Assembly (NCBI RefSeq): GCF_001866665.1
Contig: NZ_MLYO01000037.1
Location: forward strand, 1 to 64,000
Direction: 5' to 3'
Length of the DNA stretch: 64,000 nt
From: Streptomyces monashensis
GTDB lineage: Bacteria; Actinomycetota; Actinomycetes; Streptomycetales; Streptomycetaceae
Below the pieces are notes generated by a model that made no database searches, had not been told where the DNA came from, and saw only the letters and a program-made list of their open reading frames with translations. This document shows, in pieces, positions 23,985-33,677 of this stretch; position 1 is the stretch's first letter, and each line of letters opens with the position of its first letter. Made by a program: the position numbers and the translations under genes.

Positions 23985-25709
23985 TCAGGCCGACACGCAC
24001 TCCGGCAGCGCGACGACCCTCGGCAACGCCCCCCGGTCCCCGCTGCCCAGCCGGGTGTACGCGCTGTAGAGATGGTTGCCGACCGTCCGCACGGACAGGG
24101 TCAGCCGCTCGGCGATCTCCCGGTTGCTCAGCCCGGCCGCGGCGAGGGTGACGATCTGCCGCTGCCGTGCGGTCAGTTCGCCGAGCACGAGCCCGTCCAG
24201 CGCGGACGTCCGCGCCCCCTGGCAGCAGCGTGCGAGCGCGACGGCCCGGGTACGGGAGAGCCGTGCCGCCCGCGGATCCCGGTGCACCCGTACGGCCTGT
24301 GCGTGCGCCTCCGCCGCGAAGAGCAGGAACCCGCGCTCCGCCAACGCCTCGGCGGCCCGGTCCAGTCCGCCCCCGTCACCGCGCCGCAGCGCATCGGCAT
24401 GACGCGCGAACGCGCTCCCCTGCGGCAGCCGCCCCACCGCCCGCTCGGGCTTTCCCGAGCGCACCGCTTCATACCGGGCGAACACCGCATCCACGTCGTC
24501 GAACCTCAACCCACCCTCCGCCAGCCGGAGTTCCGCCTCGCAGGCCGCGTCACCCGGCGTCTCCCGCACCCCCTCGCGCGCCCAGGCGGCGGCGTCCCGT
24601 ACCTCGCCCCGCAGCCGCGCGAACCGAGCCCGTACGGCGGCGTACCCGGCCGGGACCGGCATGCCCTCCGCGACCAGCCACTCCCCCACCGGGGCGGACG
24701 CCTCCCGGACGTCCAGCCGCTCGATCCCCCGTACCAGGGCGCGCCGTTCGGCCTCCAGGGCGGGGCCGAGGTCGCGCGGCCCACGCGTCAGCCGGCGGGC
24801 GCGCAGCCGGCCGGTCACAGCGCGCAGGGCCGGGCCGTGCAGGGGATGGGCGAGGGTGACGGCCGCCGCCCGGTCGTCGACGTGGATCAGGCCGTCCGTC
24901 TCCAGACGCTCCAGGGCGTCGAGGTCGAGGCCGTCCAGCGGCAGGGCGAGCGGCTCGGCGAACGCGAGGCGTTCCAGCGTCTCCCGTTCGCCGGGGCCGG
25001 AGCGCTCCAGCAGCGGGGCGAGCCGTTCGCGCACGGCCGGGGTGACCGGCAGCGGGCCGCGCAGGCTCCGCTCGCCGGAGCCGGGAAGGGACGTCAGCAG
25101 GCCGCCGGCCGCCGACGCGGCGACCAGGTCCCGCAGCAGCCGCAGATCGCCCCGGCACACGCCGTGCAGACGGCGCACGGTGAGCGGGTCGAGCCCGGCG
25201 GTGGCGAGGAGCTGCGCGACGTCCTCGTACGGCAGCGGCGACAGGGCCAGCCGGGGCAGCAGTTCACCGGTCCACAGCCGGGAGACCGCAGCGGGTACGG
25301 GCACCCCGTCCACCGCGGCGACGACCAGCCGGGTACGCCCGTGCACGGCGAGGTGGTGGACCAGGGCGGCCGAGGCCTCGTCCAGCAGATGGGCGTCGTC
25401 CACGACGAGGAGCCGCAGGCCGGACAGGATCCGGACCGCGCGCTGCGGCGAGACGGCGTCGGGCAGCAGGTGCGCGAAGGCGGCGAAGGGCAGCTCCCGG
25501 GCCGCGGGCGTGCCGGTGACCTGGGCGTGGTCGGTGCCCCGGACCGCCTCCGTGATCAGCCGGGTCTTTCCGTGGCCGGCCGGTCCGGTCACCACGACGC
25601 CCTGCCGGACGGCCGCCCACGCGCTGCGCACCCGCTCCAGTTCGTCGTCCCGGCCGGTGAAGGGCCAGGGCGGCCGAGCGGTCGTCGCGTCCTGTTCGTA
25701 AGTCGTCAC
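23985..25709 (-). CDS. LAL-type LuxR-family transcriptional regulator with N-terminal ATPase domain
   Basis: The protein has 574 residues. An N-terminal AAA/STAND-like domain carries Walker A GPAGHGKT (residues 42-49) and Walker B LLVVDDAHLLDE (about 100). A helical middle section follows, then a C-terminal LuxR helix-turn-helix with [20 protein letters not shown] (about 510-530). It is shorter than the 900-residue LAL regulators of antibiotic clusters. The GTG at 25709 is 96 bases from the divergent astacin-like gene, the nearest candidate target. Direct ACTCAGG repeats in that gap could be part of its operator. Confidence 0.85.
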   Translation of the reverse strand: MTTYEQDATTARPPWPFTGRDDELERVRSAWAAVRQGVVVTGPAGHGKTRLITEAVRGTDHAQVTGTPAARELPFAAFAHLLPDAVSPQRAVRILSGLRLLVVDDAHLLDEASAALVHHLAVHGRTRLVVAAVDGVPVPAAVSRLWTGELLPRLALSPLPYEDVAQLLATAGLDPLTVRRLHGVCRGDLRLLRDLVAASAAGGLLTSLPGSGERSLRGPLPVTPAVRERLAPLLERSGPGERETLERLAFAEPLALPLDGLDLDALERLETDGLIHVDDRAAAVTLAHPLHGPALRAVTGRLRARRLTRGPRDLGPALEAERRALVRGIERLDVREASAPVGEWLVAEGMPVPAGYAAVRARFARLRGEVRDAAAWAREGVRETPGDAACEAELRLAEGGLRFDDVDAVFARYEAVRSGKPERAVGRLPQGSAFARHADALRRGDGGGLDRAAEALAERGFLLFAAEAHAQAVRVHRDPRAARLSRTRAVALARCCQGARTSALDGLVLGELTARQRQIVTLAAAGLSNREIAERLTLSVRTVGNHLYSAYTRLGSGDRGALPRVVALPECVSA

Positions 25710-25804
25710 ATCATCAGGAGCGCGCGTACTCAGGTTTGATACAGGGCGACTTGAGTAGACCCCGACTCAGGCGCCCGGCAGCGCCCGGCGGGCAGTCTGG
25801 GCGC

Positions 25805-26890
25805 ATGACCCGACGCCTGTGCTCGCTACCGCGGCGGCCGGCCCCGGACTTCGCACCGGGGCTGACAGCCGAGCGGCTGGGCGCGCTGCTCGCCGGGCGG
25901 CGGATGTGGGTCAACGGCACGGTGCTGCACTACTACTTCTACGACCACGGCTGCGACGCCTCCGTGATCCCGGTTCCCGGGACCGGGGAGCTGCGCCGGA
26001 TGCCGTGGGCCGGTGGGGAAGCACCACGGGACGCGGTTCGCGACTGTCTGCGCGAGTGGCAGGAGCTCGGCATCGGTGTCACGTTCACCGAGGTCGGCGA
26101 CCGGCACGAGGCGGAGCTGCGGATCGGGTTCCAGCAGGGCGGCGGCTCCTGGTCCGCGGTGGGCCGGGAAGCGCTGTCGGTCGGCCGGGGCGAGCGCACC
26201 ATGAACCTGGGATGGGATGTGACGGGGCCCCAGGAGCGCGGCACGATCCTGCATGTGATCGGGCACGCGCTCGGCATGGTGCACGAGCACCAGAGCCCGT
26301 ACGCCGGGATCCACTGGGACGACGAGGCCGTGTACGCCGAACTGGCGGGCCCGCCGAACTTCTGGAGCCGGGAGACGACGGACACCAACGTCCTGCGCGC
26401 GCTCGACGCGGGCGAGGCGAGCGGATCGGTGTGGGATCCGCAGTCGGTGATGACGTTTCCGTTCGGGCCTGGGCTGGTGCTGGAGCCGGAGCAGTACCGC
26501 GGGGGGCTGCGTCCCTCCGGTGCTCCGTCCCCGGCCGACAAGGAGTTCGTGCTCCGCTGGTATCCGCCGGCCTCTCCGGCCGGTCCGACCGCGCTGGTGC
26601 CGTTCCGTTCAGCGCCGCTCGGGCTCGGACCGGGCGAGCAGGCCGACTTCACCGTCGCGCCGCCGGAGACCCGCGAGTACACCGTGGGCACCTTCGGCGA
26701 CGCCGACACCGTGCTCGTGGTCTTCGAGGAGCGGGACGGGGAGCCGCGTTTCCTCGCGGGGCACGACGACGGCGGCGGGCCGGACAACGCCGCCGTCCGC
26801 GTCCGGCTCGTCAAGGGCCGCCGCTATGCCGTCCGGGTCCGGTTGTACTCGACCTGGGGTTCGGGGGAGACAGCGGTCATGTGCTGGTGA
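25805..26890 (+). CDS. Astacin-like (M12) metallopeptidase-fold protein lacking the catalytic glutamate
   Basis: The protein has 361 residues. The zinc motif of astacins is HExxHxxGxxHE; here it reads HVIGHALGMVHEH. His150, His154 and His160 are present but the general-base Glu is Val151 (GTG codon 26255-26257, one base from GAG). SVMTFPFG matches the Met-turn. Residues about 260-361 form a beta-rich C-terminal domain like those binding ligands or carbohydrate. No signal peptide is evident. It is probably a zinc-binding pseudopeptidase, unless the single base is a sequence error. It is divergent from the LuxR regulator and followed by a strong terminator. Confidence 0.8.
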   Translation: MTRRLCSLPRRPAPDFAPGLTAERLGALLAGRRMWVNGTVLHYYFYDHGCDASVIPVPGTGELRRMPWAGGEAPRDAVRDCLREWQELGIGVTFTEVGDRHEAELRIGFQQGGGSWSAVGREALSVGRGERTMNLGWDVTGPQERGTILHVIGHALGMVHEHQSPYAGIHWDDEAVYAELAGPPNFWSRETTDTNVLRALDAGEASGSVWDPQSVMTFPFGPGLVLEPEQYRGGLRPSGAPSPADKEFVLRWYPPASPAGPTALVPFRSAPLGLGPGEQADFTVAPPETREYTVGTFGDADTVLVVFEERDGEPRFLAGHDDGGGPDNAAVRVRLVKGRRYAVRVRLYSTWGSGETAVMCW

Positions 26891-27512: not shown

Positions 27513-28397
27513 TCACCTGCGGGAAGCGTCCTCGGCGCCGACGGCGTGCGTCGCCCAGTCCAGGATCTGGACGGCCGCCCCGGCGGCTTCCAGTCCCTGG
27601 CAACGGCCGTGGTGGCGGCGGGAGATGCCGTCGAGGTCGAGGTGCCGGCCGAAGGCGGGACGCGCGGCCAGCCGGCGGGCCCAGGCCCACAGGGCGCGGT
27701 GGCCGGCGATGCGGTGCACGGCGGAGGCGTCGAGGTGGCAGCGGTGGACGGTGTCGAGCTGGACCAGGGTCACCCACAGTTCGACGTCGGCGGCGGTGAG
27801 CCGGTCGTCGACCAGGTACTCCTCCCCGGCCAGCCGCCTCTCCAGCCGGCTCAGGGTGTCGAGCAGCACGTCGAGGGCGGCGGCGCGCCCGTCCGGGTCG
27901 CCGCCCGCCTGTCCGGCCCGCTGCGCGGCCTCCCCGATGTCATCGCACATCCCCTCGACGGCCTCGATCACGGACTCCTGGCCGCACGGGTACAGCACGG
28001 CGCGCCCCTCGTGCGGGAAGCGGTCGAGGTCGCGCAGGATCTCGCGGGCCCGGGTGCTGACGATGCGGCCGGACCAGTCGTCGCTGAGCACGGGGGCGAG
28101 GGCCGGCCCGGTGTAGTGGTGGGCGCTGGCCTCGTACAGCGGGCGCAGCGCGGCGTGACCGCCGCCGGGACCGTCCGGGACGGCGGGCAGGAGGGTGACG
28201 GGACAGCTGTCGCCCAGGCCGAGGACGTCGTGTCCGACGGCGAGGCGCAGTCCGTCGGGACCGGCGGTGGATAGGTGGAGCCGGTAGCGGTGGGCCACGG
28301 CGTAGTGGCCGCTGCGGGCGTCCCGGCCGATCCGGCCCCGGAAGACGGGGGCGGCGCGGTGGACGGACGGGACGGCGGCGAGCGGAGTGCTGGACAT
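27513..28397 (-). CDS. Glutathionyl-hydroquinone-reductase-like (Xi-class GST fold) protein without the active-site cysteine
   Basis: The protein has 294 residues. The C-terminal half matches the Xi-class GST/ECM4 family: YLVDDRLTAADVELWVTLVQLDTVH and LWAWARRLAARPAFGRHLDLDGI. In that family the N-terminal thioredoxin-fold motif is a Cys-Pro-Trp-Ala type site after the RYRL strand. Here RYRLHLSTAGPDGLR replaces it and no Cys is at the site. Streptomyces uses mycothiol rather than glutathione, and this copy is probably not a standard thiol reductase. The ATG at 28397 follows GGGGAGA. It is preceded by a leader-peptide frame typical of sulphur-responsive genes. Confidence 0.65.
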   Translation of the reverse strand: MSSTPLAAVPSVHRAAPVFRGRIGRDARSGHYAVAHRYRLHLSTAGPDGLRLAVGHDVLGLGDSCPVTLLPAVPDGPGGGHAALRPLYEASAHHYTGPALAPVLSDDWSGRIVSTRAREILRDLDRFPHEGRAVLYPCGQESVIEAVEGMCDDIGEAAQRAGQAGGDPDGRAAALDVLLDTLSRLERRLAGEEYLVDDRLTAADVELWVTLVQLDTVHRCHLDASAVHRIAGHRALWAWARRLAARPAFGRHLDLDGISRRHHGRCQGLEAAGAAVQILDWATHAVGAEDASRR

Positions 28398-28474
28398 GCG
28401 TCTCCCCGGGTGGTGGGCGTGCGGTGGGGCGCGCCGACGGACGGCGTCGGCCGGTGGGCGCGCGGGAGCCGGGC

Positions 28475-28600
28475 TCAGCGGCGCGGGCTGATCGCGCTGC
28501 ACACACGCAGCAGATCGATGTGGCGGCGGGAGGTGAGCAGGGGGGCGCGGAGCGGTGTACGGCCGGTGCGGCCGGTGACCGATGCGAGGCGCGCCATCAT
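28475..28600 (-). CDS. Putative cis-regulatory leader peptide (RRHIDLLRV family)
   Basis: This is a 41-codon frame starting with a double ATG (28600, 28597) behind GGTAGGGA. It contains LLTSRRHIDLLRVCSA, the hallmark of the small actinobacterial leader peptides annotated upstream of sulphur-assimilation and related genes. Translation of the Cys codon near the end is thought to sense cysteine supply and control the downstream gene. It lies 77 bases ahead of the GST-like gene on the same strand and implies that gene is expressed under sulphur or cysteine control. It is too short for usual gene callers. Confidence 0.75.
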   Translation of the reverse strand: MMARLASVTGRTGRTPLRAPLLTSRRHIDLLRVCSAISPRR

Positions 28601-28632
28601 TCCCTACCTGTTCACTAGGGTTCCCGCCCTGA

Positions 28633-28661
28633 AGTGTCGATCCGGCTCCGTGCGACGTCAA
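28633..28661 (-). promoter_or_regulatory. Predicted promoter of the leader peptide and GST-like gene
   Basis: On the minus strand TTGACG (28661-28656) and GACACT (28638-28633) are 17 bases apart, a reasonable sigma-HrdB-type promoter, about 33 bases ahead of the leader-peptide start. Confidence 0.45.
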
Positions 28662-28769
28662 GAGGGGGGCCACGCCTCAGACTCCGGGCGGGAGGGAAAG
28701 GAGGACGGTGCGGCTCGGGACGATGCGCGCGCGGCCGCGCGTGTCCGAGGTCTCCCCAGACAGTGCGCC

Positions 28770-28787: not shown

Positions 28788-29948
28788 GTGGCAAAGCGAC
28801 TGACCTGCGATGTCGTGGTCGTCGGAGCCGGCATGGTCGGCGCGGCCTGTGCTCTGTACGCCGCGCGGGCGGGCCTCGACGTACGGGTGGTGGACCGGGG
28901 ACCGGTGGCCGGCGGCACCACCGGGGCGGGCGAGGGCAACCTCCTCGTCTCGGACAAGGAACCGGGCCCGGAGCTCGAACTCGCCCTGCTGTCGGCCCGG
29001 TTGTGGGAGCGCCTGGCGGACGGGCCGGGTGCGGCGGCCGAGTACGAGCCCAAGGGCGGCCTGGTGGTCGCCCGGACGCCCGCCGCCCTGGCCGCGCTGA
29101 CGGAGTTCGCGGCCGGACAGCGCGCCGCCGGCGTCCTCGCCGAGCCGGTGAGCGCGGCCGAACTGCCGGACCTGGAGCCCCACTTGGCCGCGGACCTGGC
29201 GGGCGGGGTGCACTATCCGCAGGACGCACAGGTCATGCCCGCCCTGGCCGCGGCGCATCTGCTGCGCGCCTGTGGCGCCCGGCTGCACACGGGCCGGACG
29301 GTGACCGGGGTGATCCGCGGGCCGGACGGCACGGTCCGCGGCGTCCGCACCGACCGGGGCGACCTGTCCGCACCGGCGGTGGTGAACGCGGCCGGCACCT
29401 GGGGCGGCGACCTCGCGGCACTCGCGGGCGTCCGGCTGCCGGTCCTCCCCCGGCGCGGCTTCGTCCTCGTCACCGAGCCGCTGCCGCGCCTGGTCCGGCA
29501 CAAGGTGTACGCGGCGGACTACGTGGCGGACGTGGCGAGCGACTCGGCCGCCCTGCGCACCTCGCCGGTCGTGGAGGGCACGGCCGCCGGACCGGTGCTG
29601 ATCGGCGCGAGCCGGGAACGGGTCGGCTTCGACCGCTCGCTGTCCCTGCCCGCCGTACGGGCGCTCGCCGCCGGGGCGATCGGGCTGTTCCCCTTCCTGG
29701 AGCGGGTCCGCGCGCTGCGCACGTACGCCGGATTCCGGCCGTATCTGCCCGACCACCTCCCGGCGATCGGCCCCGACCCCCGGGCACCCGGGCTCTTCCA
29801 CGCCTGCGGGCACGAGGGCGCCGGCATCGGACTCGCCACCGGCACCGGCCGGCTGATCGCCCAGGCACTCACCGGCGGGACACCGGAGCTGGACCTCACC
29901 CCGTTCCGCCCGGAGCGGTTCGACGCGGACGGAGGCGACACGCCGTGA
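28788..29948 (+). CDS. D-hydroxyproline dehydrogenase, DAO-type FAD subunit
   Basis: The protein has 386 residues. The FAD motif VVVVGAGMVGAACALYAARAG sits at residues 9-29. The conserved GEGNLLVSDKEPGPELEL block and the C-terminal HACGHEGAGIGLATGTGRL are typical of the HcnC/LhpB-type subunit of D-hydroxyproline dehydrogenases. It oxidises cis-4-hydroxy-D-proline to 1-pyrroline-4-hydroxy-2-carboxylate together with the next two gene products. It is first in the operon; its stop overlaps the start of the 2Fe-2S subunit (GTGA at 29945-29948). Assignment rests on the gene set, since the subfamily also includes octopine and nopaline oxidases. Confidence 0.82.
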   Translation: MAKRLTCDVVVVGAGMVGAACALYAARAGLDVRVVDRGPVAGGTTGAGEGNLLVSDKEPGPELELALLSARLWERLADGPGAAAEYEPKGGLVVARTPAALAALTEFAAGQRAAGVLAEPVSAAELPDLEPHLAADLAGGVHYPQDAQVMPALAAAHLLRACGARLHTGRTVTGVIRGPDGTVRGVRTDRGDLSAPAVVNAAGTWGGDLAALAGVRLPVLPRRGFVLVTEPLPRLVRHKVYAADYVADVASDSAALRTSPVVEGTAAGPVLIGASRERVGFDRSLSLPAVRALAAGAIGLFPFLERVRALRTYAGFRPYLPDHLPAIGPDPRAPGLFHACGHEGAGIGLATGTGRLIAQALTGGTPELDLTPFRPERFDADGGDTP

Positions 29949-30265
29949 ATCCCCTGGAGTTGACCCGGGCCCGGCCGGGCCGGCCTTTCACCGTCACCCT
30001 GGACGGGCGGCCCGTCGAGGCGCTGCCCGGACAGACGGTCGCGGCGACGCTGTGGGCGGCCGGCGTGCCGGCCTGGCGCACCACGCGCGGCACGGGCCGG
30101 CCGCGCGGGGTGTTCTGCGGGATCGGGGTGTGCTTCGACTGCCTGGTGACCGTCAACGGCCGTGCGAACCAACGCGCTTGCCTGGTCCCGGTGCACCCGG
30201 GCGACGCGATCCGCACCCAGGAGGGGACAGGGCCGGCCGGAGGGACGGTACAGGGCGATGAGTGA
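29945..30265 (+). CDS. (2Fe-2S)-binding small subunit of D-hydroxyproline dehydrogenase
   Basis: The protein has 106 residues, a ferredoxin-like HcnA/LhpF-type subunit. Cysteines in GVFCGIGVCFDCLVTV and NQRACLVPV give the CxxxxCxxC...C ligand set of a [2Fe-2S] cluster. It carries electrons between the two flavoprotein subunits. It overlaps both neighbours: its GTG lies in the upstream stop and its stop lies inside the start of the next gene. Confidence 0.85.
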   Translation: MNPLELTRARPGRPFTVTLDGRPVEALPGQTVAATLWAAGVPAWRTTRGTGRPRGVFCGIGVCFDCLVTVNGRANQRACLVPVHPGDAIRTQEGTGPAGGTVQGDE

Positions 30266-31715
30266 GCGTGTTCATCTCGCCGTCGTCGGCGCCGGTCCGG
30301 CGGGCCTCGCCGGGGCGCTGGCGGCGGCTTCCCGGGGCGTGCGCGTCACCCTGGTCGACGCGGGCGACCGGGCGGGCGGCCAGTTCTACCGGCAGCCCGC
30401 CCCCGCCCTGAACGCCCGCCGCCCGCAGGCGCTGCACCATCAGTGGCGCACCTGGCGGCGGCTCGCGGACGGCCTGGCCCGGCACACCGAGGCCGGGTAC
30501 CTCACGCATCTGACGGGACATCATGTGTGGTGCGTACAGCGGGAGTCGGACTCCCTCGCGGTGCACGCCCTGCTCGGACCGGAGCAGGAGGAGGGCGTCA
30601 CGGTGCACGCCGACGCGGTCCTGCTCGCGACCGGCGGTTACGAGCGGGTGCTGCCCTTCCCGGGCTGGACGCTGCCCGGAGTCGTCACGGCGGGCGGTGC
30701 GCAGGCCATGCTCAAGGGCGGCCTGGTACTGCCGGGCCGTACGGTCGTGGTCGCGGGCACCGGACCGCTGCTGCTGCCGGTGGCCACGGGGCTCGCCGCG
30801 GCCGGTGCGCGGGTGGCCGCACTGGTGGAGTCCGCCAGCCCCGCGGCCCTGCTGCGCCGGGCGCCCGGCCTCGCGGCGCAGCCCGGCAAGCTCGCCGAAG
30901 GCGTCTGGTACGCGGGGCTGTTGGCGCGGCACCGGGTGCCCGTCCTGGCCCGGCACACCGTGGTGGCGGCGCACGGCACCGACCGGCTGACGGCGGTCAC
31001 CGTCGCCGCGCTGGACCGCACCGGCCGGATCCGGCCCGGCACCGCGCGCCGCATCCCCTGCGACACCCTCGCCGTCGGCCACGGCATGCTGCCGCACACC
31101 GATCTCGCCGAGACCCTCGGCTGCGCGCTCGCCGGCACGGCCGTACGGGTGGACGCGGAGCAGCGCACCGACGTGCCCGGGGTGTGGGCCGCCGGCGAGG
31201 CCACCGGCGTCGGCGGCGCGGCCCTCGCCCTGGCCGAGGGGCACATCGCCGGCCGCTCGGCGGCCGCTCGCATGCGGGGCACCGTCCCCGACCCGCCCGC
31301 CTGGGCCGCCGCCGACCGGGCCAGGACCCGGCACCGGGCCTTCTCCACGGCGCTCGACACCGTGTACGCGCCGCCCGCGGGCTGGGCGGAGCGGATCCCG
31401 GACGACACGGTGGTGTGCCGGTGCGAGGAGGTCACCGCGGGCGAGGTCCGTACGGCCGCCCGGACGCTCGGGGCCACCGACCTGCGCTCCGCGAAGCTGC
31501 TCACCCGGGCCGGCATGGGCTGGTGCCAGGGCCGGATGTGCGCACCCGCGGTGGCCGGCCTCACCGGCTGCCCGCTGACGGCGGCACGCCGCCCGTTCGC
31601 ACGCCCCGTCCCGCTCGGCGTACTGGCGGGCCTGCCGGACGCCCCGGACGGACCAAAAGCTCCGGGGGCTCCGGAGGACCGGGCGGCGGACGACAGCTCA
31701 CCCGCACAACAGTGA
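30258..31715 (+). CDS. D-hydroxyproline dehydrogenase, NAD(P)/FAD subunit with BFD-type [2Fe-2S] domain
   Basis: The protein has 485 residues. The N-terminal FAD motif is VVGAGPAGLAGALAAASRG, with a second dinucleotide motif VVVAGTGPLLLPVATGLAA near residue 160. The C-terminal segment VVCRCEEVTAGEV with GWCQGRMC supplies four Cys for a BFD-like [2Fe-2S] cluster (residues about 390-435). This is the HcnB/LhpE-type subunit. In the glycerol-type operon at 5.6-9.8 kb the same BFD domain is attached to the other flavoprotein. The start overlaps the upstream gene by eight bases. Confidence 0.85.
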   Translation: MSERVHLAVVGAGPAGLAGALAAASRGVRVTLVDAGDRAGGQFYRQPAPALNARRPQALHHQWRTWRRLADGLARHTEAGYLTHLTGHHVWCVQRESDSLAVHALLGPEQEEGVTVHADAVLLATGGYERVLPFPGWTLPGVVTAGGAQAMLKGGLVLPGRTVVVAGTGPLLLPVATGLAAAGARVAALVESASPAALLRRAPGLAAQPGKLAEGVWYAGLLARHRVPVLARHTVVAAHGTDRLTAVTVAALDRTGRIRPGTARRIPCDTLAVGHGMLPHTDLAETLGCALAGTAVRVDAEQRTDVPGVWAAGEATGVGGAALALAEGHIAGRSAAARMRGTVPDPPAWAAADRARTRHRAFSTALDTVYAPPAGWAERIPDDTVVCRCEEVTAGEVRTAARTLGATDLRSAKLLTRAGMGWCQGRMCAPAVAGLTGCPLTAARRPFARPVPLGVLAGLPDAPDGPKAPGAPEDRAADDSSPAQQ

Positions 31716-31726
31716 TATGTCACATA
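31716..31726. promoter_or_regulatory. GntR operator copy 2, ahead of the deaminase gene
   Basis: TATGTCACATA, a near-perfect palindrome, begins one base after the stop of the dehydrogenase subunit. Ten of its bases are the exact reverse complement of the site at 28770-28779. It suggests an internal promoter or secondary operator within the hydroxyproline operon. Confidence 0.55.
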
Positions 31727-31747
31727 CTCATTGATTGGGGACCGCTC

Positions 31748-32644
31748 ATGACCCACCCGGAGAACCGCCCCTGGCGCGGCGTCCTCGTCGCCACCGCGCT
31801 TCCCCTGCGCGCCGACCTCTCCGTCGACCACGACCGCTACGCCGAGCACTGCTCCTGGCTGGTCGACAGCGGCTGCGACGGCGTCGTGCCCAACGGTTCG
31901 CTCGGCGAGTACCAGGTGCTCACCCCCGAGGAGCGGGCCCGGGTGGTGCGGACGGCGGTGGCGGCGATCGGCGGGGAGCGGGTGATGCCGGGCGTCGCCG
32001 CGTACGGCTCCGCCGAGGCGCGGCGCTGGGCCGAGCAGGCGGGCGAGGCGGGCTGCGCGTCGGTGATGCTGCTGCCGCCCAACGCCTACCGTGCCGACGA
32101 GCGCTCGGTGCTCGCCCACTACGCGGAGGTCGCCCGGTCCGGCCTGCCGGTGGTGGCGTACAACAACCCGGTCGACACGAAGGTCGACCTGGTGCCCGAA
32201 CTCCTCGCCCGGCTGCACGGCGAGGGCCACGTCCACGCGGTCAAGGAGTTCTCGGGCGACGTCCGCCGCGCCTACCGCCTCGCGGAACTCGCCCCGGAAC
32301 TCGACCTGTTGATCGGCGCCGACGACGTCCTGCTGGAGCTGGCGGTGGCCGGTGCCAAGGGCTGGGTGGCGGGCTACCCCAACGCGCTGCCGCGCGCCTC
32401 GGCGCAGCTGTACCGCGCCGCCGCGGCCGGCGACCTCACCACCGCCCTCCCCCTGTACCGGCGGCTGCATCCCCTGCTGCGCTGGGACTCGCGGACGGAG
32501 TTCGTGCAGGCGATCAAGCTGTCCATGGACGTCGTCGGCCGGTACGGCGGCCCGGTGCGCCCGCCGCGTGTCCCGCTGCTGCCGGAACAGGCGGCCGCGG
32601 TCCGCGCGGCCACCGAGAAGGCCGCCGCCGCGGGCCTCGCCTGA
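31748..32644 (+). CDS. DapA-family lyase, probable 1-pyrroline-4-hydroxy-2-carboxylate deaminase
   Basis: The protein has 298 residues and a TIM-barrel DHDPS fold. The Schiff-base Lys166 is in HAVKEFSGD, the general-acid Tyr138 in VVAYNNPVD and the substrate loop is VPNGSLGEYQVL. In this context it deaminates pyrroline-4-hydroxy-2-carboxylate to 2-oxoglutarate semialdehyde (LhpC-type). GGGGA precedes the ATG by seven bases. It follows an internal operator copy. A semialdehyde dehydrogenase needed for the last step is not in the window. Confidence 0.85.
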   Translation: MTHPENRPWRGVLVATALPLRADLSVDHDRYAEHCSWLVDSGCDGVVPNGSLGEYQVLTPEERARVVRTAVAAIGGERVMPGVAAYGSAEARRWAEQAGEAGCASVMLLPPNAYRADERSVLAHYAEVARSGLPVVAYNNPVDTKVDLVPELLARLHGEGHVHAVKEFSGDVRRAYRLAELAPELDLLIGADDVLLELAVAGAKGWVAGYPNALPRASAQLYRAAAAGDLTTALPLYRRLHPLLRWDSRTEFVQAIKLSMDVVGRYGGPVRPPRVPLLPEQAAAVRAATEKAAAAGLA

Positions 32645-32675
32645 GCACCCACCCCGCGCAGGAGGGAGTCGGACC

Positions 32676-33677
32676 ATGCGCAGCAAGCTCGTCCTGCACG
32701 CCGTCGACTCGCACACCGAGGGCATGCCGACCCGCGTGATCACCGGCGGGATCGGCACCGTACCCGGTGCGACGATGAACGAACGGCGGCTGTACTTCCG
32801 CGAACACCGCGACCCGATCAAGCAGTTGCTGATGAACGAGCCGCGCGGCCACTCCGCGATGAGCGGCGCGGTCCTCCAGCCGCCGAGCCGTCCCGACTGC
32901 GACTGGGGGGTTCTCTACATCGAGGTCTCGGGCTATCTGCCGATGTGCGGGCACGGCACGATCGGGGTGGCGACCGTACTGGTCGAGACCGGCATGGTGG
33001 AGGTCGTGGAGCCGGTGACCACCATCCGGCTGGACACCCCGGCGGGGCTGGTGGTGGCCGAGGTGGCGGTGGAGAACGGTGCCGCACGGCACGTGACCCT
33101 GAGGAACGTGCCCTCGTTCGCCGTCGCCCTGGACCGCGAGATCACCCTGCCGGACGGCCGTACGGTCACCTACGACCTCGCCTACGGCGGCAACTTCTAC
33201 GCGATCCTCCCCCTCGACGCCTTCGGCATCCCTTTCGACCGCGCCCGCAAGGACGACATCCTCGCGGCCGGTCTCGCGCTGATGGAGGCGATCGACTCCG
33301 AGGCGCAGCCGGTGCATCCCGAGGACCCGTCGATCCGCGGCTGCCACCATGTGCACCTCTACGCGCCCGGCGCCACCGCGCGGCTCTCGCGGCACGCGAT
33401 GGTCATCCACCCGGGCTGGTTCGACCGCTCGCCGTGCGGCACGGGTACGTGTGCGCGCATGGCGCAGTTGCACGCGCGCGGCGAACTGCCGTTGCACACC
33501 GAGTTCGTGAACGAGTCCTTCATCGGCACCCGGTTCACCGGACGCCTGCTCGGCGAGACCGAGGTGGCCGAAGTCCCGGCCGTGCTGCCGAGCTTCACCG
33601 GCCGCGCGTGGATCACCGGCACCGCCCAGTACCTGCTCGACCCCACCGACCCCTTCCCGGCGGGCTTCGTCCTCTAG
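32676..33677 (+). CDS. 4-hydroxyproline 2-epimerase (proline racemase family)
   Basis: The protein has 333 residues. The two catalytic cysteines of the proline racemase fold are present: Cys91 in PMCGHGTIG and Cys254 in DRSPCGTGTCAR. That makes it an epimerase rather than a trans-3-hydroxyproline dehydratase, which carries Thr at the second site. It converts trans-4-hydroxy-L-proline to cis-4-hydroxy-D-proline, the first catabolic step. GGAGGGAG precedes the ATG. Operon context (dehydrogenase subunits, deaminase, GntR) supports the substrate; proline itself cannot be excluded from sequence alone. Confidence 0.9.
   Translation: MRSKLVLHAVDSHTEGMPTRVITGGIGTVPGATMNERRLYFREHRDPIKQLLMNEPRGHSAMSGAVLQPPSRPDCDWGVLYIEVSGYLPMCGHGTIGVATVLVETGMVEVVEPVTTIRLDTPAGLVVAEVAVENGAARHVTLRNVPSFAVALDREITLPDGRTVTYDLAYGGNFYAILPLDAFGIPFDRARKDDILAAGLALMEAIDSEAQPVHPEDPSIRGCHHVHLYAPGATARLSRHAMVIHPGWFDRSPCGTGTCARMAQLHARGELPLHTEFVNESFIGTRFTGRLLGETEVAEVPAVLPSFTGRAWITGTAQYLLDPTDPFPAGFVL

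Follow-up and report, generated by a model that had tools for sequence, protein, structure and literature searches.

A putative leader peptide of the NF042934 family, without the family's Cys19 codon, upstream of a GST-fold gene in Streptomyces

Canestrari et al. are said to have described, in 2020, poly-cysteine short-ORF attenuators in mycobacteria. Elements of this kind are treated as regulatory in the accessible parts of two further papers (PMC9094748; PMC13236596), and the leaders upstream of GST-fold genes that we describe here share with them, and with the Ms4527A leaders of NF042936, a related core and a sulphur setting, but have no run of Cys codons and usually carry a single UGC. Candidate cys leaders of Actinobacteria were found to be without evident terminators, and a Rho-dependent action was proposed for them, in the available portion of Seliverstov et al. 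(2005) (PMC1262725); the GST leader is likewise actinobacterial and without an evident terminator, whereas the Cys-codon runs near the stop and the position upstream of cys and cbs genes reported in that portion are features of those leaders and not of the GST leader.

From its sequence, the leader reported here is best read as a member of another known family, NF042934 (cis_reg_atten, 'putative leader peptide'), in a variant form that lacks Cys19. It is like the family in core motif, size, score and place before a structural gene, and differs from it in two respects: the cysteine at position 19, encoded by UGU in 50/50 other leaders that we compared (27 of them class-wide, among the best-scoring matches), is missing, and the GST leader is preceded by an untranslated 5' region that contains a ribosome site and a conserved box. 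Among 15 other leaders of the same genome, 12 have no ribosome-site match before the likeliest ATG, chosen by eye, and on this choice of start may be leaderless. To our knowledge, Cys19/UGU is not part of the published definition of NF042934, and a literature search whose coverage left out most subscription papers found nothing on a UGU rule or a GST leader.

The window, that is, the whole stretch of 64,000 nucleotides of Streptomyces monashensis DNA that we analyzed, carries the features listed in Table 1. On the minus strand their order is promoter (28661-28633), box (28619-28600), leader ORF, a 77-nt gap and the GST gene. The initial annotation had placed in front of this gene a 41-codon leader frame with its own ribosome binding site and a TTGACG/GACACT promoter, and this observation is confirmed: the frame is there (28475-28600, minus strand), preceded by the ribosome site GGTAGGGA and by a promoter of a type common to the leader-bearing orthologues, although a start at 28597, giving 40 codons, is more likely because this second ATG occupies the position at which the ATG of most orthologues aligns. 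Membership in the leader family is borne out as well. In a profile search the window leader scores 29.3 bits against the NCBIfam model NF042934 (E 4.6e-7; 29.5 bits in the genome scan), above the curated cut-off of 27, and its 27.2 bits against NF042936 fall below that model's cut-off of 45.

Table 1. Features of the leader-GST locus, in window coordinates
Feature	Position	Strand	Remarks
-35 hexamer TTGACG	28656-28661	minus	TTGAC in 56/56 leader-bearing loci; retained in five leader-less loci
-10-like hexamer GACACT	28633-28638	minus	17 nt from -35
20-nt conserved box CCTAGTGAACAGGTAGGGAA	28600-28619	minus	right half serves as ribosome binding site of the leader
Leader peptide ORF MMARLASVTGRTGRTPLRAPLLTSRRHIDLLRVCSAISPRR	28475-28600	minus	41 codons from first ATG
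Leader family core PLLTSRRHIDLLRVCSAI	28490-28543	minus	profile positions 1-18
GST-fold gene, 294 aa	27513-28397	minus	Pfam GST_C_2; Xi-class / glutathionyl-hydroquinone-reductase-like

We compared the window with 60 further orthologous loci, all titled Streptomyces or Kitasatospora. In 56 of these 61 loci the GST-like gene has a leader in front of it; a first regular expression applied within 450 nt recovered it in 49 of the 60, and a wider search added L058, L059, L060, L070, L074 and L085. The five loci without a match are L086 and L088-L091, and because two changes on the tree could suffice to explain all five losses, they are not independent cases. A second set, which overlaps the first in species and in which several leaders look identical, yielded 53 leaders among 62 loci. 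Of its nine loci without a match to the regular expression, a leader is nonetheless present in L187 and L196, L178 lies at a contig end and L190 gave a partial hit, and no leader was found in L177, L181, L184, L185 or L194. The gap between leader and GST gene ranges from 56 to 493 nt across loci, which argues against a fixed geometry; the gaps of L056, L071 and L079 come out too long because the GST start was placed inside the gene.

Counted by parsimony on the GST tree, the core codons of the leader underwent 108 silent and 24 replacement changes; 82% are thus silent, where a simple mutation model predicts 26% (p 5e-41), and the two shifted frames of the core are only 7-8% silent. No significant silent excess was detected in the four codons 3' of the core or in the seven codons 5' of it. 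Selection therefore acts on the peptide that the core encodes, and this strongly supports its translation.

The promoter is conserved alongside: in all 56 leader-bearing loci, window included, the -35 element reads TTGAC[G/T/C], the -10 element is GACACT in 52, GAGACT in three and CAGACT in one, and the spacer measures 17 nt in 54 loci and 18 nt in two. A scan of the window for the TTGACA/TATAAT consensus did not report the TTGACG/GACACT pair. The 20-nt box has a single match in the S. monashensis genome at up to three mismatches. In L086 and L088-L091, promoter and box are retained with at most two central box bases changed, and the GST ribosome site directly follows the box, a pattern like that of a clean leader deletion. 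Since the box outlives the leader in these five loci, it may be a separate operator, one whose right half would double as the leader's ribosome site. A role as a regulon-wide operator is not supported, given the absence of a second genome copy and the dyad pattern of the box, which is not enriched in the genome (51 sites forward versus 236 in the reversed control). NdgR was rejected as the box-binding factor, its motif examples in the accessible part of PMC4340878 reading GTCC-N7-GGAC, unlike the box. We also discarded a mini-ORF within the box (GTG-N-N-TAG), conserved-looking in the first 61 loci: the start is missing in L168 and the stop in L172, with the other codon kept in each.

The feature that separates GST leaders from the rest of the family is codon 19. 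The 50 leaders with a UGU at this position (L005-L011, L013-L020, L094-L098, L100-L102 and 27 of L135-L163) comprise 23 non-GST leaders from the window's own genome and S. griseofuscus and the 27 class-wide ones, the latter drawn from 29 loci of which L140 and L159 were not located. They are not independent, since some are near-identical pairs; some also score below the NF042934 cut-off, down to 18.5 bits, two truncated leaders (L148, L149) were located by a criterion requiring the final Cys, and the own-genome hits L021-L032 (E > 0.05) were excluded from the count. UGU makes up approximately 15-22% of Cys codons in background ORFs, with 228 UGC versus 40 UGU in a rough gene set of GC3-rich ORFs and 94 UGC versus 26 UGU in the ORFs of the window, and the other Cys codons of the class-wide leaders, among the best-scoring matches, are 34 UGC and 12 UGU. 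Near the Cys19 codon a clear bias is seen solely at the next base (C in 38/48), which suggests that the codon itself is what is constrained. UGU19, seen in all 50 leaders compared, offers a sharp and testable rule for the family.

None of the GST leaders has Cys19 (0/56, and 0/53 in the second set with its overlapping species). The window leader has Ser (AGC) there, and GST leaders at large have Ser, Gly, Asn, Arg, Pro or a stop, the stop in 11/53 of the second set. The initial annotation had tied the GST-like protein to cysteine status through its leader family, and this tie is not supported as stated: because UGU19 is absent from all 56 and all 53 GST leaders, some of which are without any Cys, the family's cysteine link cannot be transferred to them unchanged. 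That interpretation as a whole is partly supported.

The association of the leader family with sulphur genes, claimed in the same place, holds for the window's own genome, where nine places score above the NF042934 cut-off and where ten leaders that we checked, above and below it, precede mostly sulphur-related genes. Genes over NCBIfam cut-offs behind these leaders encode the dimethylsulphone monooxygenase SfnG, a CysK/M-type cysteine synthase and SsuE, and one leader precedes a cysteine dioxygenase over the Pfam cut-off. Others match at E <= 1e-25 but below cut-off: an NtaA/DmoA monooxygenase, a protein of NirA/sulphite-reductase type, a mercaptopyruvate sulphurtransferase, a taurine dioxygenase, an SsuC-type permease and an amino-acid permease whose best match is a cystine permease. 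The CysM gene of L007 comes second behind the leader, with a short ORF between them, and for L011 and L015-L018 the downstream genes were assigned by visual inspection alone.

A comparison of the orthologous loci revealed an amino-acid transporter and flavin monooxygenase set beside the GST gene in most relatives. In 43/61 loci the next same-strand gene after GST belongs to one ABC permease cluster, as clustered from a mechanical ORF filter. This permease is of the same type as the amino-acid permease behind an own-genome leader; one representative scores similarly against permease models for glutamate, ectoine and cystine, and the identity of the transporter rests on two representatives, both below cut-off. 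Genes for a substrate-binding protein, a GNAT acetyltransferase and FMN monooxygenases are frequent further behind the GST gene. This set of an amino-acid (cystine-like) transporter, an N-acetyltransferase and a flavin monooxygenase probably serves sulphur scavenging. Clusters for the salvage of S-alkylcysteine and S-(2-succino)cysteine (cmo, yxe) are alike in bringing together an ABC amino-acid transporter, an N-acetyltransferase and an FMN monooxygenase, according to the accessible parts of PMC10863075 and PMC9706529; unlike the GST-bearing loci, the available main text of the yxe paper has 0 matches to 'gst' (PMC9706529).

Leaders of the family stand upstream of sulphur genes in most of the ten own-genome cases, and by neighborhood the GST leader would do so in 43/61 loci; the window copy is detached, its GST gene adjoining AbsR1/AbsR2 and not the transporter set. 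In S. monashensis that set lies on another contig, C163 (permease 84%, substrate-binding protein 77% and one monooxygenase 87% identical). A C-terminal GST fragment of 45 residues (residues 241-285, 67% identical; approximately C163:50933-51067, minus strand) lies about 0.5 kb upstream of the C163 permease, so that a GST copy must once have been part of that cluster. The five leader-less loci are all beside AbsR1 and all among the 18 loci without the transporter; leader and transporter presence are associated (Fisher p 0.0014), though the leader losses fit as few as two tree changes. The transporter, FMN monooxygenases and the GST fragment are part of a sulphur island (C163:38500-64500) that also carries the leaders L005, L008, L011, L014, L015 and L020.

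By sequence and predicted fold, the GST-fold protein belongs with the Xi-class GSTs and glutathionyl-hydroquinone reductases. Its sequence matches in the PDB are 4pts and 3r3e, and the best Foldseek match of the AF2 model (pLDDT 74.6, pTM 0.77) is YqjG, 3r3e (E 7.8e-13, TM 0.69). It shares fold and sequence with these enzymes but not their CPWA-type catalytic Cys: where 4pts has CPWA, the window protein has GPDG, with Gly at position 46. Across the 61 loci, residue 46 is Cys in 43, His in nine, Asp in six, and Gly, Ser and Arg in one each. A comparison by eye revealed no evident link between the leader Cys and the active-site Cys of the GST. Streptomyces use mycothiol rather than glutathione. 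L081-L086 and L088-L091 form a clade of GST-like proteins in which His or Arg takes the place of the catalytic-type Cys and which are shorter, at 219-225 aa, than the 294-aa protein of the window.

Turning to the RNA, a scan for terminator-like sites of the classical attenuator type (hairpin and T run) found 0 in window positions 28380-28720, Rfam gave no match, and RNAalifold on the 56 leader-bearing loci found no consensus structure in the gap between leader and GST gene. The sole consensus structure, a hairpin of four pairs, lies at the start codon of the GST gene (-2.3 kcal/mol, against -0.08, sd 0.27, for column shuffles). A masked GST ribosome site was looked for in 48 of the 56 loci (dropped were five with gaps >200 nt, L071, and L056 and L079, in which no site was found) and was not supported: the site is less paired than in shuffles (unpaired 0.20 vs 0.17, p 2e-4), and it does not change when the stretch 3' of the leader stop is blocked (gain 0.000 vs 0.003). 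In 51 loci the intergenic stretch is rich in C (C 0.52 and G 0.30; the region upstream of the promoter has C 0.38 and G 0.31), which makes an involvement of Rho possible.

We propose, with moderate confidence, that a translated, cis-acting leader of the NF042934 family controls the GST gene, and that nascent-chain pausing sets downstream expression. The nascent RRHIDLxRVxSA chain would slow the ribosome as it approaches the leader's end, and its dwell time there would set the amount of downstream gene expression, most plausibly through attenuation, either Rho-dependent or translational, at low sulphur or cysteine supply. Since a UGC-encoded Cys15 is usual and not universal, the stall in GST leaders may depend on the peptide motif to a greater extent than on a Cys codon. 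The genes that the leader accompanies make sulphur or cysteine supply its most likely signal, and the missing UGU renders that signal uncertain. Against control by the leader, the persistence of the box without it suggests control by another route, and the window's GST gene no longer has the catalytic-type Cys, nor the transporter set beside it. More tentatively, RRHxDLxRVxSA might be a nascent-chain pausing element and UGU19 the cysteine sensor of the family, with GST leaders forming a UGU-free class that responds to a signal other than charged tRNA-Cys and to which the box adds transcriptional control; such leaders would pause on the peptide alone or at a position-19 stop. GST leaders bring a GST-fold enzyme into the group of sulphur genes that share this type of leader, and they constitute a natural test of how NF042934-type leaders work: should those without UGU, or without any Cys, still regulate, the working part is the conserved peptide and not the cysteine codon.

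Pausing of this kind has to be weighed against a plain cysteine-codon attenuator, in which low Cys-tRNA would stall the ribosome at the UGC of Cys15 and open the GST ribosome site, a mode of action that has been proposed for the poly-cysteine leaders of mycobacteria. We regard this as possible but doubtful. Cys15 is present in 49/56 GST leaders and in 45/53 of the second set, and mycobacterial cysteine-rich leaders are reported as regulatory in the accessible parts of PMC9094748 and PMC13236596, but the residue is replaced by Ser, Asn or Arg in 7/56, Cys is absent altogether from 5/56 (L039, L045, L082, L084, L085) in which the motif is kept, the codon is the common UGC (48 of 49) and not the family's UGU at position 19, and the 48 loci gave no sign that the GST ribosome site is masked. 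Main control by a transcription factor on the 20-nt box, with the leader merely tuning translation, would account for the retention of the box in 5/5 named leader-less loci as well as in leader-less L194 and, diverged, in leader-less L185. The box of leader-less L177 is even a perfect 8-bp dyad (CCCTACTG-AAC-CAGTAGGG), and that of L185 reaches 6/7. We nonetheless consider such control unlikely, given that the dyad is just 4/7 in 102 of the 116 boxes collected, that the genome holds neither a second box nor an enrichment of the dyad, and that the leader peptide itself is strongly selected.

Two further explanations carry less weight. The window leader could be a relic, without importance now that its GST gene has left the transporter set and lost the catalytic-type Cys; the AbsR1 neighborhood, the GST fragment left beside the C163 transporter, Gly at residue 46 and the related AbsR1-side GST copies without a leader are all consistent with this. 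It is nevertheless improbable in view of a window promoter, box, start, core and stop that are all intact, the core being the majority sequence. That the peptide is a functional small protein acting in trans would fit its conservation at the peptide level, yet related cores with different ends stand before several unrelated sulphur genes, as expected of cis leaders, and neither the last codons nor the seven codons before the core show a silent excess, which leaves this explanation highly improbable.

The surroundings of the locus in the window include homologues of AbsR2 (minus strand) and AbsR1 (plus strand), both over NCBIfam cut-offs, beside the GST gene at 23985-26890. A divergent set on the plus strand (28788-33677), led by an FAD-dependent oxidoreductase and including a gene of proline racemase / hydroxyproline epimerase type, probably serves hydroxyproline catabolism.
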